DNA from: a virus
DNA length: 34,398 nt
Strand: one strand, 5' to 3'
IMG/VR virus record: IMGVR_UViG_3300008450_000199
Coordinates: 1 to 34,398 of that record
Both the position numbers and the translations under genes were made by a program. Of the stretch, positions 3,741 to 30,875 are shown one piece after another. Positions within the stretch are counted from its first letter, which is position 1. Each line of letters begins with the position of its first letter. The notes beneath the pieces are model-generated. The model was given only the letters and a program-made list of their open reading frames with translations, was not told where the DNA came from and ran no database searches.

Positions 3741-3962
3741 ATGACCGCAGTGGAGCGCATGCGGGGGGAACTGCGTCGGCATCTGCGGCTGGTGCTGGCC
3801 GCGAACCGGTGGAGCCTGCAGGAGGCCGCGAAGCGGTCGGGCGTCGGGGAGAGCACGCTGCAACGCATCGCCAACGGCGAGAACACGAGCGTGGATACCT
3901 TCGTCCGGTTCGCCGACGGCCTCGGCTACGAGGTGCACATCACCCTGCTTCGGAAGCCGTAG
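3741..3962 (+). CDS. XRE-type helix-turn-helix regulator, 73 aa
   Basis: ATG at 3741 follows an AGGGGG site. Residues 22-60 form a Cro/C1-type helix-turn-helix: WSLQEAAKRSGVGESTLQRI is the HTH and NGENTSVDTFVRFADGLGY completes the five-helix bundle. The last residues (EVHITLLRKP) make a strand as in antitoxin-like XRE proteins. It stands alone inside the head operon. Twenty-four bases after its stop lies TTGACACCATGTAAGC (3985-4000), a near copy of a sequence in the early promoter at 26132. It may therefore be the regulator that binds this motif; this link is inference. No toxin gene is adjacent. Confidence 0.85.
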   Translation: MTAVERMRGELRRHLRLVLAANRWSLQEAAKRSGVGESTLQRIANGENTSVDTFVRFADGLGYEVHITLLRKP

Positions 3963-3978
3963 CCCCAGATGTGGGGCT
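3961..3978 (+). terminator. Short hairpin at the end of the HTH gene
   Basis: AGCCCCA (3961-3967) and TGGGGCT (3972-3978) make a perfect 7-bp GC-rich stem with a 4-nt GATG loop, overlapping the stop codon. No T-run follows, only ATTCGATTG, so it could be a weak terminator, an RNA-end stabiliser or a pause site between the regulator and portal genes. Confidence 0.45.
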
Positions 3979-3984
3979 ATTCGA

Positions 3985-4000
3985 TTGACACCATGTAAGC
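3985..4000 (+). promoter_or_regulatory. Operator-like site, copy A of GACACC(A/G)TG motif
   Basis: TTGACACCATGTAAGC matches the site at 26132-26147 in 13 of 14 positions from GACACC to AAGC, and the site at 31703 over TTGACACC-TG. TTGACA could be a -35 box, but the sequence 17 nt downstream (CAAACT) is a poor -10, so a protein-binding role fits better than a strong promoter. The core ACA-N3-TGT is a short dyad. Confidence 0.5.
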
Positions 4001-4019
4001 GAACACGCAAACTTCGAGC

Positions 4020-5645
4020 GTGGCTATTCCTGCGTCTACGCCTACCGGCACGCCGTCGAGTGTGCTGGGAGTTACGCACCCGCTCTATCTGCGCTACCGG
4101 GACATCTGGACCAAGCTGCTGGATGTGTTCGAGGGCGGCGGGGGCTTCATCGACGACAGCAGGCCTTATCTCATCGCGCACCCCCGCGAGTGGCTGGATC
4201 ACAGCATCCCCATCTACGACGGCAATGGGAACGTGCTGCGCTACGAGGTCAATCCGAGCCCCAAACAGGCGTCGCCCAAGCTGACCGAGCGCCGGAAGCT
4301 GGCGCGTTACGAGAACATCGCCGCCACGCTGATTGAGCAGCTGCAGGGCCTGCTGTTCCGCATGAAGCCCGAGCGGACCTCCGGCGCCGGCCAGCTCGAC
4401 ATGAGCAGCCCGCTGATGCAGTTCTGGCGCGACGCCGACGGGCTCGGCAACACGTGGGACGACCTGCTGCAGGAAGCGTGGGGGCCGTGCGCGGCGTTCG
4501 GGCACCTGTGGGGCTACGTGGATGTGCTGCCGGACGACCCGCGCCGCGCGGTCGTGCGCTGGTATACGCCCATCGACGTGCCCGACTGGCTGGTCGATGA
4601 GCAGGGCGCACTGCGGTCGGTCAAGTTCCTCGAGGCGGTGCCGCGCGAGAGCTACCAGAAGACCCTGACGGCCAGCAGCATCGAGATTCGCGTCCGCGAG
4701 GTCAATGCCGAGGGCTGGATTCTGCGCACCCGCAACGGCAAGGTCATCAGCCAGGGCACGCACGACTTCGGCGTGGTCCCGGCGTTTGTCCTGTATGCCA
4801 AGCGCCGCGCCCTGACGCCGTTTATCGGGCGCTCGGTGCTCGGCGACCCGCAGCTCTACATCGACCTCTACAATTGCATCAGCGAGGTGCGCGAGCTGCT
4901 GCGCAAGCAGACGTTTACGATTCTCAACGTGCCCATCGGCGATGCCCCGGGCGGGGTGCAGCGGGAACAGCAGCTCATCGGCCAGCAGAGCGGCACGGGC
5001 AACGTGCTGTTCACGACGAACAGCGCGCAGATGCTGTCACCGGACAACGCAAACGTGACCTCGTATCACGAGCACATGGACCGGCTGACCCGCATCATCT
5101 ATCGGCTGGCGGTGCTGCCGTGGGAGGGCGATGGACGCGCCGCCGAGTCTGCCGAGTCGCGCAAGGTGAAGCGGCAGGACCTCGACGCGGTGCTGGCGTC
5201 CTACGCCGACGAACTGCAGCGCGTGGACCACTTCGTGACTGACCTGGTGTATCGGGCCTACTACGGACAGGACGCCGCCGAGCGGTGGCGCGACCGCGAC
5301 CAGCTCACCATCCGCTGGCCTGACACGTTCGACGCGCCAGACCTGACCGAAGTGACCAAGCAGTTCGCTGAGGCGCTGGCGCTGGAGCTTGGGCCGACGG
5401 CCAGCGGGGAAATCCGCAAGCGGGCCGCGCGGCTCGTGCTGCCAGACACCGACGAGGCGGTCATGGACGCCATCGACGCCGACATCTCCGCCAGCCCGAC
5501 GCAGACGCTGCAGGACCGGCGAGTAGCGTCCATCGAGGCGCTGACGCAGCGGCTCGCGCAGAACGTCGCCGCCGAAGAGGCCGACGACGAGGACGACACC
5601 GACGACGACATGACCGACGAGGACAATGGCAACGACGCCCAGTGA
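4020..5645 (+). CDS. Portal protein, 541 aa
   Basis: The start is GTG at 4020. Length, position after terminase and before a MuF-like protein, and an acidic C-terminal tail (EEADDEDDTDDD) all fit a portal, the dodecameric ring through which DNA enters the head. Recognisable segments include THPLYLRYRDIWTKLLDVFEG, FAEALALELGPTASGEIRKR-type helices and the middle domain around RLTRIIYRLAVLPWEGDG. Style resembles DUF4055-like or SPP1-like portals of metagenomic siphoviruses, though I cannot name the exact family. It overlaps the next gene by 20 nt. The ribosome binding site is weak, so ATG-less initiation and coupling are somewhat uncertain. Confidence 0.85.
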   Translation: MAIPASTPTGTPSSVLGVTHPLYLRYRDIWTKLLDVFEGGGGFIDDSRPYLIAHPREWLDHSIPIYDGNGNVLRYEVNPSPKQASPKLTERRKLARYENIAATLIEQLQGLLFRMKPERTSGAGQLDMSSPLMQFWRDADGLGNTWDDLLQEAWGPCAAFGHLWGYVDVLPDDPRRAVVRWYTPIDVPDWLVDEQGALRSVKFLEAVPRESYQKTLTASSIEIRVREVNAEGWILRTRNGKVISQGTHDFGVVPAFVLYAKRRALTPFIGRSVLGDPQLYIDLYNCISEVRELLRKQTFTILNVPIGDAPGGVQREQQLIGQQSGTGNVLFTTNSAQMLSPDNANVTSYHEHMDRLTRIIYRLAVLPWEGDGRAAESAESRKVKRQDLDAVLASYADELQRVDHFVTDLVYRAYYGQDAAERWRDRDQLTIRWPDTFDAPDLTEVTKQFAEALALELGPTASGEIRKRAARLVLPDTDEAVMDAIDADISASPTQTLQDRRVASIEALTQRLAQNVAAEEADDEDDTDDDMTDEDNGNDAQ

Positions 5646-26345: not shown

Positions 26346-26963
26346 ATGGACGTTTACAAGGCAATTGCATCGGTGGCCGGAGAACTGGCCGCCATTGGCA
26401 TCGGCAAGACCAGCAAGAACGTGTCGCAGGGCTTTGCGTTTCGCGGCATTGACGCCGTGATGAACACGCTGTCGCCGCTGCTGGCGAAGCACAGCCTTGT
26501 GGTGCTGCCCCGTGTGCTGTCGCGGCAGGTCACCGAGCGGACGAACGGCAAGGGGACCGTGCTGTTCTACGTGACCGTCGAGGTGGAGTATGACCTCGTG
26601 TCGGCGGTGGATGGCAGCCGCCATGTCATCCGCGTGGTCGGCGAGGCGATGGACTCCGGCGACAAGGCCACCAACAAGGCTATGAGCGCCGCCTATAAAT
26701 ATGCGATGTTTCAGGCGCTGTGCATCCCGGTCGAAGGGACGCCAGACGCCGACGCGACGACGCACGAAGTGCAGGCGCTGCCGGACGGCTTCCTTGACTG
26801 GCTGGACGACATGCAGATTGTCGCCGAGCAGGGCGGCACCAAGGCGCTGCAGGGCGCATGGGCGCAGTCGCGGACGGAATGGAAGGCGCTCGTGCAGACC
26901 GGCCATGCCGACCGCTGGAAGGCCATCAAGGCCAGCGCGGCGCGGCAGGACAGCCATGTCTGA
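26346..26963 (+). CDS. erf: Erf-family single-strand annealing protein, 205 aa
   Basis: ATG at 26346 has GGGGAGGAG upstream. Residues 1-140 match the ERF domain: IASVAGELAAIGIGKTSKN, YKFRGID-type FRGIDAVMNTLSPLL, then the signature SGDKATNKAMSAAYKYAMFQ near residue 104. ERF proteins bind single-stranded DNA and anneal complementary strands for recombination and genome circularisation. The C-terminal 60 residues are a helical extension. It overlaps the exonuclease gene by 8 nt, forming the usual annealing-plus-exonuclease pair. Confidence 0.92.
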   Translation: MDVYKAIASVAGELAAIGIGKTSKNVSQGFAFRGIDAVMNTLSPLLAKHSLVVLPRVLSRQVTERTNGKGTVLFYVTVEVEYDLVSAVDGSRHVIRVVGEAMDSGDKATNKAMSAAYKYAMFQALCIPVEGTPDADATTHEVQALPDGFLDWLDDMQIVAEQGGTKALQGAWAQSRTEWKALVQTGHADRWKAIKASAARQDSHV

Positions 26964-27630
26964 CCTGCTCATTGACACCAACCCGCAGGGCTCGCCAGCA
27001 TGGCTGGCGGCCCGAGCCGGGTGCGTGACCGGGAGCCGTGCGGCTGACGTGGTGGCGGTGCGCAAGGACGGCCAGCCGACCGCCGCGCGCGCCGACTACC
27101 TGGCGCAGCTGGTCGCCGAGCACCTGACCGGCCAGCCGCAGGAGACGGGCATCGTCACGCCGTGGATGCAGCGCGGGACCGAGCTTGAGCCCGAGGCGCG
27201 GCTGCGGCTGGAGGCCCACATCGACGAGCCCATCTTCGAGGCGGGGTTCATCCGTCGTGCGCTGGTGTGGCAGGACCATGCGTATCACATCGGCTGCAGC
27301 GTGGATGGCTACTTCGGCGGGAGCCCGCAGCACGGCATCGTCGAGCTGAAGTGCCCGAAGCCGACGACGCATCTGCGGTATCTGCGCGAGGGCGTCATCC
27401 CCTCGGACTATTGGCCGCAGCTGCTGCACAACCTGCTGGTCACGGGCGCGGAGGTGTGCTGGTTCGCCAGCTACTGCCCGATCCTGCCGCCGCCTCTGCA
27501 GCTCTTCGCGCTGAAGGTGGAGCGCGGCGACCCGGACGTCGAACGGCGCCGAACGGGCTATCAACTGGCGCTGTCGGCCTTTCTGTCAGACTTGGACACG
27601 GAACTGGACTACTGGAGGACACGAGCATGA
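26956..27630 (+). CDS. YqaJ/lambda-exonuclease-type recombinase exonuclease, 224 aa
   Basis: ATG at 26956. Motifs of the YqaJ fold are clear: SPAWLAARAGCVTGSRAADV at the start, RGTELEPEARLRLEA near residue 75, SVDGYFGG with the catalytic aspartate near 115, IVELKCPK with the ExK pair near 130, and YWPQLLHNLLVTG near 154. The enzyme degrades the 5' strand of double-stranded ends and hands the 3' strand to Erf. Length is normal. It overlaps the preceding and following genes, so the three are co-translated. Confidence 0.93.
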   Translation: MSDLLIDTNPQGSPAWLAARAGCVTGSRAADVVAVRKDGQPTAARADYLAQLVAEHLTGQPQETGIVTPWMQRGTELEPEARLRLEAHIDEPIFEAGFIRRALVWQDHAYHIGCSVDGYFGGSPQHGIVELKCPKPTTHLRYLREGVIPSDYWPQLLHNLLVTGAEVCWFASYCPILPPPLQLFALKVERGDPDVERRRTGYQLALSAFLSDLDTELDYWRTRA

Positions 27631-27896
27631 GTGAGCAGACGAAGCCGGAACGCAAGGACATCGGCGCCCTGTGGGAGAAGACCAGCCAGAACGGCATGAC
27701 CTACATGAGCGGGACCATCAACGGGCAGCGGGTGGCAGTCTTCCGGAACAAATACAAGGAGGAGGGCGACAACAAGCCGCACTGGCGCATCTTCCCCGAG
27801 GCCGAGCGGCAGGCGAACGGGCAGCCTGCACCAGCTCAGGCACGACCGCAACGGGCACAGGCCGACGACACGACGTCGGACGACATCCCGTTCTAA
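27627..27896 (+). CDS. Mini SSB-like protein (DUF736-like) with SSB C-terminal tip, 89 aa
   Basis: ATG at 27627 overlaps the exonuclease stop. Residues 10-55 (IGALWEKTSQNGMTYMSGTI, then RVAVFRNKYKEEGDNKPHWR) look like the small beta domain of DUF736-type proteins. A linker rich in P, Q and A follows. The last residues are SDDIPF, almost the same as the conserved acidic tip DDDIPF of bacterial SSB, which binds PriA, RecQ, RecO, exonuclease I and the clamp-loader chi subunit. Next to Erf and YqaJ, it probably binds or mimics single-stranded DNA complexes. Whether the beta domain itself binds DNA is not known. Confidence 0.78.
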   Translation: MSEQTKPERKDIGALWEKTSQNGMTYMSGTINGQRVAVFRNKYKEEGDNKPHWRIFPEAERQANGQPAPAQARPQRAQADDTTSDDIPF

Positions 27897-28184: not shown

Positions 28185-29090
28185 ATGGACGACTCGACCT
28201 CTGAACCCACACACCTGCGCGGCATCGGCGCGTTTGGCATGATTCCCGAATGGCTGCTCGTGGCGAAGGTCAGCAGCACGGCCAAGGTGCTGTTCGGCTG
28301 GATGGCGTGCAAGTATGCCAGCCGATCGACCTGGTCCTGCTGGCCGGGACAGGCGCGTCTTGCGGAAGATTTGGGCTGTAGTCCGAGAACCATTGCCAGC
28401 GCCATCACGGAGCTGGTCGAGGTGGGCGCGGTGACCCGTCGCGCGCGGGTGGACAAGCACGGCGCACCGGCCAGCAACTTCTATCAGCTGATGTTCCTCC
28501 CCCCCCGCAGAAAACTGCAGGACCTGCAGAAAACTGCGGGACCCCTCCCGCAGAAAACTGCATCTACCCCCCCGCAGAAAACTGCATATGAACTAGAAGT
28601 ACTAGAACCAGAGGTACTGGAACGAGAGGAAGCGTCTCCGCGTCAGGAGACGGCGACGATATCAGCCCCCCTCATCGACAGCCCCCTGCAGTGGCATCGT
28701 CGGCACGGTAGCCATGTGGCCGAGATGTGCGACTGGGTCTGCCTGCCGCAGGAGCTGGCGAGTCAATACGCCACACGGGCCGGGATGACCGACGTTGAGG
28801 TGCTGGCGTGGGCCAAGCAGGTGCGGCAGGACTGGCAGACCGCCAAGCGGGTGCCGACCGGGTCGATGTTCGAGTTCTGGCAGGCCCGATGGGCCGAGCG
28901 GCACGCCGCCACGCAGCCGACCGCCGTGCCCAAGGGCCACACCTTCAGCGACCTGACGCAGTATCGCCAGGACAAGGCCGAGCGCGACCGGCAGGAAGCC
29001 GAGCGCATCGCCCGCTACCATGAGGAGACCCGGCGCCAGATGGCCTATCTGCGCGCCTTGGAGGAGGAGATGCGCAATGAGCAGCAGTAG
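28185..29090 (+). CDS. Lambda O-like replication initiator with intragenic iterons, 301 aa
   Basis: I chose ATG 28185 because of GAAGGAG at 28168-28174. Residues 20-105 form a winged helix-turn-helix (STWSCWPGQARLAEDLGCSP, then RTIASAITELVEVGAVTRRA), as in phage replication proteins of the O/DnaD type. Residues 110-140 are encoded by the iteron stretch and are repeat-like (LQKTAG, PQKTAS, PQKTAY). The C-terminal half (WHRRHGSHVAEMCDWVCLPQ and WAKQVRQDWQTAKRVPTGSM) is helical and probably meets the helicase loader. By analogy with lambda O, it binds the iterons to open the origin. Confidence 0.82.
   Translation: MDDSTSEPTHLRGIGAFGMIPEWLLVAKVSSTAKVLFGWMACKYASRSTWSCWPGQARLAEDLGCSPRTIASAITELVEVGAVTRRARVDKHGAPASNFYQLMFLPPRRKLQDLQKTAGPLPQKTASTPPQKTAYELEVLEPEVLEREEASPRQETATISAPLIDSPLQWHRRHGSHVAEMCDWVCLPQELASQYATRAGMTDVEVLAWAKQVRQDWQTAKRVPTGSMFEFWQARWAERHAATQPTAVPKGHTFSDLTQYRQDKAERDRQEAERIARYHEETRRQMAYLRALEEEMRNEQQ
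28507..28585 (+). repeat. ori: Replication origin iterons: four copies of GCAGAAAACTGC
   Basis: Perfect 12-nt copies lie at 28507-28518, 28526-28537, 28550-28561 and 28574-28585 (starts 19, 24 and 24 nt apart). The unit is a near palindrome with an A-rich centre. The first copy is in a different reading frame from the others (RRKLQ versus QKTA), so the DNA sequence rather than the protein is conserved. This is the arrangement of lambda ori inside gene O. Confidence 0.85.
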
Positions 29091-29604
29091 TGAAATTGGC
29101 AACCAGCTCGAGCGGCTGGCGCTGGCCGGGTTCGTCGCTCCGAAGGACGACAAGCTGGCGGCGATGGTGGAGGAGTGGGGCAAGGCCCTGACGCGGTTCG
29201 AGGTGGGACAGATTGAGCAGGGCATCAACTGGCTAATCCATCACCGTCGGGAACGCTGGTGGCCGACGGTGGGCGAGCTGCTCGACGCCATCCGGATGAC
29301 GACCGTCCAGAAGGAGGAGCCGAGCCGCAAGTGCCGGACGTGTGACGGGTCGAAGTGGATGGAGGCGGTGCCGTTCCAGTCGTTCGGGCAGGTCTACACG
29401 GCGGTGCGACGGTGCCCGGACTGCGGGACGCCGCCGCCGCCCTACGCCATCCCGCCAGGTAGTCGGCAGCCCCTGACGGCGGCGCAGCACCGGACCTACC
29501 TCAACACGGCCAAGACGCCGGTGGAGCTGACGTTCGACCAGTTCATCGGGCAGCTCCGCGCGATGGGGGCCGAGCAGCTGGCCAGCCGGGTGGTGCGGCC
29601 ATGA
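29077..29604 (+). CDS. Helicase loader-like protein with zinc ribbon, 175 aa
   Basis: ATG at 29077 follows GGAGGAG and overlaps the initiator gene by 14 nt. The N-terminal part (RFEVGQIEQGINWLIHHRRE, then RWWPTVGELLDAIR near residue 65) recalls the G39P-type helicase loader/inhibitor pattern ending in PT..E. A zinc ribbon follows: CRTCDGSKW near residue 86 and CPDCG near 114. The C-terminus is helical (LTFDQFIGQLRAMGAEQLAS). It likely brings host DnaB to the initiator-bound origin, since the phage has no helicase of its own. Confidence 0.68.
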   Translation: MSSSSEIGNQLERLALAGFVAPKDDKLAAMVEEWGKALTRFEVGQIEQGINWLIHHRRERWWPTVGELLDAIRMTTVQKEEPSRKCRTCDGSKWMEAVPFQSFGQVYTAVRRCPDCGTPPPPYAIPPGSRQPLTAAQHRTYLNTAKTPVELTFDQFIGQLRAMGAEQLASRVVRP

Positions 29605-30875
29605 CGCGCACGGTTCGCGTGGCTGACCTGTTCTGTGGGGCCGGTGGCAGCAGCACCGGACTCCTGCAAGCCGCTCAGGCGCTCGGCCTGACGGTAGACT
29701 TGACGGCAGTCAACCATTGGACGACGGCGGTCGAAACCCACGCGACGAATCATCCGCAGGCGCGGCATGTGTGCGCGTCACTGGACAGTCTCGACCCGCG
29801 CCAAGTGACCGGCGGCAAACTGGACCTGCTGTGGGCCTCGCCGGAGTGCACGCATCACAGCACGGCGCGCGGCGGCAAGCCCATCCATGACCAGTCCCGC
29901 GCGACGGCGTGGTGCGTCACGCGATGGGCTGAAGCCCTGCGCCCCAAGTGGGTCATCGTCGAAAACGTGCCAGAGTTTCAGACATGGGGCCCGCTGGGCG
30001 CAGACCAGCGCCCATTGGCCTCGCGGAAAGGCCAGACGTTTGCCGCGTGGCTCCAGACGCTGCGCGCCTTGGGTTACACGGTCGAGACCCGGGTCTTGAA
30101 TGCCGCCGATTACGGCGCGGCGACCTCTCGGCGGAGATTGTTTGTCATGGCGCGGCTCGACGGTGGCGCGCGTGGGCGGGGGCCGCTGACCTGGCCGGAG
30201 CGCACCCATGCGCCACACGGTGACGCGACACTGTTCGGCACGTTGGCCCCGTGGCGCGCCGCACGGGACATCATCGACTGGCAGGACAGCGGCACCTCCA
30301 TCTTTCGGCGTTCGCGCCCGCTCGCAGCCAAGACGCTGCAGCGCATCGCGGCAGGCGCGCGGAAGTTCTGGTCGGTGGACCTGCAGCCGTTTTTGGTGGC
30401 GATGGAACACGGCGGGCGTGAGCTGCCCATCGACAAGCCGATGCCGACCATCACGACGGCGAAGGGGGGCGCGTTTGGACTGGTGCAGCCGTTCCTCCTC
30501 GGGCAGCAATCAGGCGCGACCGCACGGCCTGTGACGGAGCCAGTGCCGACCGTCTCCACCAGTGGCGCGATTGCACTGGTCGAGCCGTTCTTGGTCAGCT
30601 TCTACGGCAACGGCGGGCCGCAGTCGGTGGGCGAACCGCTGCGCACCATCACCACCAAAGATCGGTTTGGCCTGGTCGAGCCGTCTGCGCTGGACATTCG
30701 CTTCAGGATGCTCAGGCCGCATGAGCTGGCGTCGGCAATGGGATTCCCGACGGCGTATCAGTTCGCCGGGACGCGGACGGACGCGGTGAAGCAGATCGGC
30801 AACGCGGTGGAAGTGCATCAGGCCGCGGCCTTGTGGACAGCAGCATTGCGGCAGACAGTGGGAGGTGTGGCATGA
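29601..30875 (+). CDS. DNA (cytosine-5) methyltransferase, 424 aa
   Basis: ATG at 29601 overlaps the preceding stop. Motif I DLFCGAGGSSTG near residue 9, motif IV ASPECTHHS near 78 with the catalytic cysteine in a PEC rather than PPC setting, motif VI VENVPEF near 117, motif VIII GAATSRRRLFV near 170, and motifs IX-X MLRPHELASAMGFP and QIGNAV near the end are all visible. The target-recognition region holds three repeats of PTITT...LV.PFL type (around residues 280, 310 and 340). No restriction enzyme is adjacent, so it probably protects phage DNA from host restriction. Confidence 0.92.
   Translation: MTRTVRVADLFCGAGGSSTGLLQAAQALGLTVDLTAVNHWTTAVETHATNHPQARHVCASLDSLDPRQVTGGKLDLLWASPECTHHSTARGGKPIHDQSRATAWCVTRWAEALRPKWVIVENVPEFQTWGPLGADQRPLASRKGQTFAAWLQTLRALGYTVETRVLNAADYGAATSRRRLFVMARLDGGARGRGPLTWPERTHAPHGDATLFGTLAPWRAARDIIDWQDSGTSIFRRSRPLAAKTLQRIAAGARKFWSVDLQPFLVAMEHGGRELPIDKPMPTITTAKGGAFGLVQPFLLGQQSGATARPVTEPVPTVSTSGAIALVEPFLVSFYGNGGPQSVGEPLRTITTKDRFGLVEPSALDIRFRMLRPHELASAMGFPTAYQFAGTRTDAVKQIGNAVEVHQAAALWTAALRQTVGGVA

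Follow-up and report, generated by a model that had tools for sequence, protein, structure and literature searches.

A likely lambda-ori-like replication origin inside the HTH_36 initiator gene of an uncultivated phage

The window analyzed here, 34,398 bases long, is the whole of the viral IMG/VR record IMGVR_UViG_3300008450_000199, in which terminase, portal, major head and tail genes are present. Positions 28507-28634 of this record very probably constitute a phage replication origin that resembles the lambda origin and lies within the gene of its own initiator. The locus follows a known architecture, that of the lambda-type intragenic origin, but uses an initiator of a different family, HTH_36. 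We infer that initiator binding, strand opening, helicase loading and the start of replication all take place here. The initiator gene and its DNA-binding parts are as follows:

28185..29090, plus strand: initiator gene, HTH_36 winged helix, O-like, 301 aa (PF13730, phrog_270, phrog_391)
28281..28424, plus strand: HTH_36 domain, residues 33-80 (profile match)
28377..28415, plus strand: predicted recognition helix CSPRTIASAITEL, residues 65-77, with R68 and T69 in the set of family columns that follow the iterons most closely

The initial annotation had placed a set of repeats in the middle of a gene with a winged helix, and this was supported by profile searches with the 28185-29090 protein. 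It matched HTH_36 (PF13730) with E=2.9e-10 and 40.3 bits, passing the curated cut-off of 25, and it also matched two PHROG families, phrog_270, annotated as 'replication initiation protein' (E=3.5e-16), and the O-like phrog_391 (E=3.2e-10). Neither the Phage_rep_O profile (PF04492) nor the RepA_N profile (PF06970) matched the window initiator at E<=1, with lambda O itself serving as a positive reference for the former (E=5.7e-36). RepA_N is the nearest solved fold, and the fold matches of the initiator to RepA_N structures were weak (E about 0.05-0.12).

The iterons sit in the middle of this open reading frame:

28507..28518, unstranded: iteron 1, GCAGAAAACTGC, read as RRKLQ
28526..28537, unstranded: iteron 2, GCAGAAAACTGC, read as QKTA
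28550..28561, unstranded: iteron 3, GCAGAAAACTGC, read as QKTA
28574..28585, unstranded: iteron 4, GCAGAAAACTGC, read as QKTA

A search of the whole 34,398-base record returned exact copies of GCAGAAAACTGC at 28507, 28526, 28550 and 28574 and no other copy, in agreement with the four perfect 12-mers first described, and their spacing of 19/24/24 bp indeed puts copy 1 in a different frame, giving RRKLQ instead of QKTA. Each iteron is a dyad, GCAG-AAAA-CTGC, with a central A-tract, and the copies draw on locally rare codons, namely AAA (7 of 55 Lys codons) and ACT (2 of 138 Thr codons). We then recoded the 35-residue stretch 100,000 times, leaving the encoded protein unchanged and choosing among synonymous codons according to the codon usage of the phage. 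No copy of GCAGAAAACTGC arose in 99,583 of the recodings, one copy arose in 416, two in a single recoding and three or more in none. Since recoding yields at most two copies, the DNA sequence of the iteron stretch must itself be constrained, and the initial proposal that selection acts here on DNA was thus borne out. The 12-mer alone is not diagnostic, because exact copies also occur in pairs outside initiators (loci L010, L013, L014, L022 and L025); in bacterial genomes, most GCAGAAAACTGC pairs fall in unrelated coding or tandem repeats. At one such locus (L010:2418-2489), three copies lie 26-34 bp apart within larger inverted repeats, where neither strand holds an ORF of at least 80 aa. Literature searches for the 12-mer brought up unrelated papers only.

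Directly to the right of iteron 4 lies an AT-rich stretch:

28587..28634, unstranded: candidate DNA-unwinding element, AT-rich, with 15-bp repeats and rare codons

It contains three imperfect 15-bp tandem repeats, GAACNAGARGTACNN (GAACNAGAGGTACNN), which start at 28590, 28605 and 28620 and together span 28590-28634. In the 45 bp after iteron 4, 19 of 45 bases are G or C, compared with a mean of 27.8 in recoded sequences, and none of 100,000 synonymous recodings was as low; over the 15 bp next to the iteron, GC content is lower than the mean of the gene by 0.32, and it recovers after 45 bp. The stretch encodes the peptide YELEVLEPEVLEREE, for which it uses two rare codons, CTA for Leu (1%) and GTA for Val (2%). 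In the related loci L011 (3398-3442), L143 and L149 (2967-2996), too, the 15-bp repeats stand directly behind the iterons, and they are kept between clades whose iterons differ, including a clade with a different iteron core. Repetition at the protein level contributes to these repeats, as their period is in frame, and the choice of codons argues for an additional role of the stretch at the DNA level. Its composition and repeats make it a candidate unwinding element.

Downstream of the iterons, the initiator gene overlaps by 14 bp with the next ORF, and genes for an annealing protein and an exonuclease lie upstream of it:

29077..29604, plus strand: candidate helicase loader, 175 aa, N-terminal helical domain and zinc-ribbon-like CxxC..CxxC region (by fold)
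26346-26963, upstream of the initiator: Erf-like annealing protein
26962-27627, upstream of the initiator: YqaJ exonuclease

The claim that a loader-like gene follows the initiator held at the level of fold and gene position, and found little backing in sequence profiles. The N-terminal half of the protein had a predicted fold with a pLDDT of about 75-80, and when this was ranked against 350,542 PDB chains the first match was G39P of SPP1 (1no1; TM 0.76 on the target, 2.4 Å), while lambda P in complex with DnaB (9oa1) came second and fourth. The E-values of these matches (0.2-0.4) are not significant singly, but their rank, the function of the matched proteins and the position of the gene agree in a way that would be hard to ascribe to chance. 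As for sequence, phrog_109 gave a weak hint of a P-like loader (E=0.035), an hhalign comparison to lambda P was negative, and the Phage_lambda_P profile (PF06992), which recognizes lambda P itself with E=6.4e-62, did not match the protein. The Inhibitor_G39P profile did not match the window protein either, its best value being E=0.19 in one relative, and tblastn among isolated phages found no relative. The protein is accordingly named here a candidate helicase loader, an assignment that rests on its predicted fold, the sequence profiles being weak.

Several features of the neighborhood were observed along the way. Between the exonuclease and the initiator (27627-27893) lies an 89-aa DUF736-like protein ending in DDIPF, which resembles the acidic tip of single-strand-binding proteins. 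The initiator-loader pair is followed immediately by a C5-cytosine methyltransferase-like gene (29601-30872), and at L143 the ORF after the corresponding pair (3917-5428) also looks methyltransferase-like by eye. At L005 (2422-2925, minus strand), the C-terminus of the initiator carries a zinc module like the DnaJ-type CXXCXGXG, similar to the zinc-ribbon region of the window's candidate loader (29340-29436); an exchange of domains between initiators and loaders is one possible origin of these modules.

The initial annotation had suggested comparing the repeats and the winged helix in close relatives, with coevolution in mind, and had held that repeats absent or scrambled in relatives with the same initiator would speak against an origin. 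We found the opposite. The two nearest relatives, L011 and L077 (found again as L143-L147), have about 57-60% amino-acid identity to the window and retain the array at the same position and with the same 19/24/24 spacing, but the arms differ, with GGTC-AGAAAACT-GACC in L077/L143 and CCCA-AGAAAACT-GGGG in L011. The change of arms runs consistently through almost all copies of an array; some copies in L011 deviate slightly. The helix-turn-helix is otherwise conserved among the three, the differing residues being clustered in the recognition helix, which reads SPRTIASAITEL, SRGTIKHAIHEL and SANTIGAALKEL (SPRTIAS / SRGTIKH / SANTIGA) in the window and its relatives. Arms and recognition helix both change while the layout is kept, which is the coevolution that the initial annotation had in mind. 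In a more distant clade that shares the domain (L149-L154, about 46% identity), the 24-bp and the 15-bp repeats are both present and the core is another one, so that AGAAAACT is not obligatory; at about 2895-2965 of these loci the core is CAAGGATTTGTGC, and one repeat is inverted relative to the other two. The 12-mer GCAGAAAACTGC itself recurs in varied frames in other initiators, in two frames in L005 and in all three in L007, and also in L008 and L009.

We extended the comparison to 76 nonredundant related initiators, collected by protein homology and seeded with AGAAAACT-positive proteins. Arrays of at least three repeats at 18-26 bp spacing were present in 51 of the 76, with a sharp peak at 22-24 bp, and 49 of these 51 arrays were in mixed reading frames. 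By comparison, codon-shuffled controls gave arrays in 6 of 380 cases, and other genes of the same loci in 2 of 75, neither of them mixed-frame. The mean GC profile of the family drops by 13-17 points in the 45 bp past the last repeat. Since loci for the arm test were found by the AGAAAACT core, with the four flanking bases on each side outside the query, the symmetry of the arms could be scored separately: outer arms were complementary at 59 of 80 positions across 20 distinct arm types (shuffled arms, 26 +/- 4.3, maximum 44), and arm complementarity was 0.51, compared with 0.27, the chance level, for the control pattern. With triple AGAAAACT as the pattern, a scan hit at least 119 stretches, and its composition-matched control AGAAAATC hit 117; such raw counts were dropped as evidence; spacing, frame and arm symmetry are what separate the two patterns. 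The composition-matched non-dyad control had mainly in-frame spacings, and regular mixed-frame arrays in ORFs numbered 5 for the control versus 51.

Iterons and recognition helices also vary together. In a Mantel test, in which tree structure was controlled through domain distance only, iteron distance correlated with recognition-helix distance once the rest of the domain was removed (partial r=0.34, 0 of 2000 permutations), whereas the converse test, against the rest of the domain with the helix removed, gave 0.003. R68 was the strongest single column, and T69 and S66 were also among the top five. All 7 arrays whose initiator has Arg at the position of R68 (helix position 4) carry G as the second arm base, compared with 12 of 62 arrays without Arg (Fisher p=5e-5, a rule noticed after inspection and uncorrected for descent). 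Held-out HTH_36 genes from bacterial genomes had regular arrays in 17 of 60 cases, several of them in-frame, and most of these genes are not phage initiators; informative cases among them were too few, and we therefore treat the Arg-G rule as hypothetical. In the literature searched, which lay mostly outside the subscription journals, we found no study of covariation between iterons and recognition helix in phage initiators.

How the locus relates to characterized systems is best seen against lambda, whose origin lies in gene O and, like that of the window, consists of four intragenic A-joined dyad iterons in several frames, with an adjacent AT-rich stretch and an overlapping downstream loader gene (PMC6022878; PMC7466680). 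As read from the lambda record, its iterons have dyad arms around an A-tract, a spacing of 20/24/23 (19/24/24 in the window) and frames 0,2,2,1, and they are followed by an AT-rich stretch (GC -15, -35 and -21 points) and then by the overlapping P gene. The iteron sequences of the two phages differ, the window initiator belongs to HTH_36 and not to Phage_rep_O (PF04492), and the window loader resembles P in fold only and has an additional zinc-ribbon-like region. The initial description of a lambda-like origin therefore stands with respect to the dyad iterons, mixed frames, spacing, AT-rich stretch, winged helix and loader fold, and does not extend to a Phage_rep_O match. In SPP1, G38P and G39P likewise pair an initiator with a small non-ATPase loader, and G39P is the best fold match (1no1) of the window loader, which nevertheless has no Inhibitor_G39P match. 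The RepA_N initiators of plasmids and satellites (Rep-DNA complexes 4pql/4pt7/5kbj) share with the window a winged-helix initiator and an iteron origin, but the window protein has no RepA_N profile match and its fold match to them is weak. PLE satellites have a RepA with an iteron origin, and their RepA_N DNA-binding domain is reported to covary with the origin (PMC8263062). Isolated phages with HTH_36 initiators have, like the window, intragenic mixed-frame repeats and then a fall in GC; the repeats are spaced 18-24 bp in gp86 of Arthrobacter phage LiSara and 21-22 bp in Parageobacillus phage JGon-2020a, and these initiators are annotated merely as an HTH protein or are unannotated. Unlike in the window, the repeat cores of both phages are without the AAAA tract. 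As they share the layout all the same, it is the layout that stays constant, and the A-tract core, though frequent, is not found in all. PMC6022878 cites work on the origin specificity of lambda/phi80/82 hybrids, which clearly counts as prior art.

Four other explanations of the repeats were weighed against an origin. They might be operators for autoregulation of the operon by the winged-helix protein, with replication starting elsewhere, as dyad sites for a DNA-binding protein inside its own gene would fit such a role; yet the sites lie about 320 bp into the ORF and away from the promoter, they are regularly spaced (22-24 bp family-wide), an AT-rich stretch and a gene with a loader fold come after them, and the PHROG matches are replication initiators, and we consider autoregulation highly unlikely. 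Most unlikely as well is a true initiator-binding array that controls copy number, causes incompatibility or acts as a decoy while the firing origin lies elsewhere in the genome. Plasmid iterons do serve such ends, but the record, possibly incomplete, has no second cluster of the 12-mer, and the AT-rich stretch directly adjoins the iterons.

The two remaining explanations strike us as extremely improbable. One holds that the repeats are conserved as protein, a QKT(A)-rich linker duplicated by slippage, and copies 2-4 do share a frame and the QKTA peptide, 24 being a multiple of 3. This is already contradicted by the frame, spacing, codon and control results: copy 1 is out of frame, spacings of 22 and 23 bp occur in the family as well as 24 bp, 49 of the 51 arrays are mixed-frame, codon usage fails to explain the synonymous choices, and the non-dyad control is mainly in-frame (5 versus 51 regular mixed-frame arrays). 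The other, no more credible, takes the dyads for RNA hairpins or terminators in an early transcript; a dyad with an AAAA loop could fold into a short hairpin, but no U-run follows the dyads, no Rfam match was found, and hairpins would be expected neither to vary with the protein's recognition helix nor to conserve a DNA spacing close to two turns.

On the preferred reading, that of an origin, two initiator molecules would use their winged helices to occupy each GCAG-AAAA-CTGC dyad, so that four initiator dimers would sit roughly two helical turns apart. The resulting nucleoprotein complex of initiator and iterons may then open the AT-rich 15-bp repeats to its right, where the candidate loader, the product of the next, overlapping gene, would bring the host helicase to the opened DNA. 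A check of GC skew, also suggested initially, was run at the locus; it gave no turning point and does not mark an origin here. The absence of such a turning point is common in phages with their genes on one strand.

To summarize, the likely origin of an uncultivated phage could be located from sequence alone, and its signature, namely mixed-frame dyad repeats at 22-24 bp behind a winged helix followed by a fall in GC, marks origins in many unannotated phages. More interesting than the single origin is the covariation of initiators and iterons across many phages. It is conceivable, if somewhat short of probable, that HTH_36 initiators and their own intragenic iterons form a fast-diversifying recognition pair in many phages, in which spacing, dyad and often AAAA are fixed while the arms change in step with a few helix residues (in the window, R68 and T69), giving rise to origin-specificity types. 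Such changes could be driven by escape from resident decoy origins or origin-directed nucleases: ectopic copies of its origin block the replication of lambda (PMC4488673), and a nuclease of phage ICP1 mimics the initiator and cuts the origin of the phage's satellite (PMC8263062). With protein and target in one gene, nature supplies hundreds of initiator-target pairs, and these offer a way to read the DNA-recognition code of this HTH_36 winged-helix family and to ask why phages switch origin specificity so fast.
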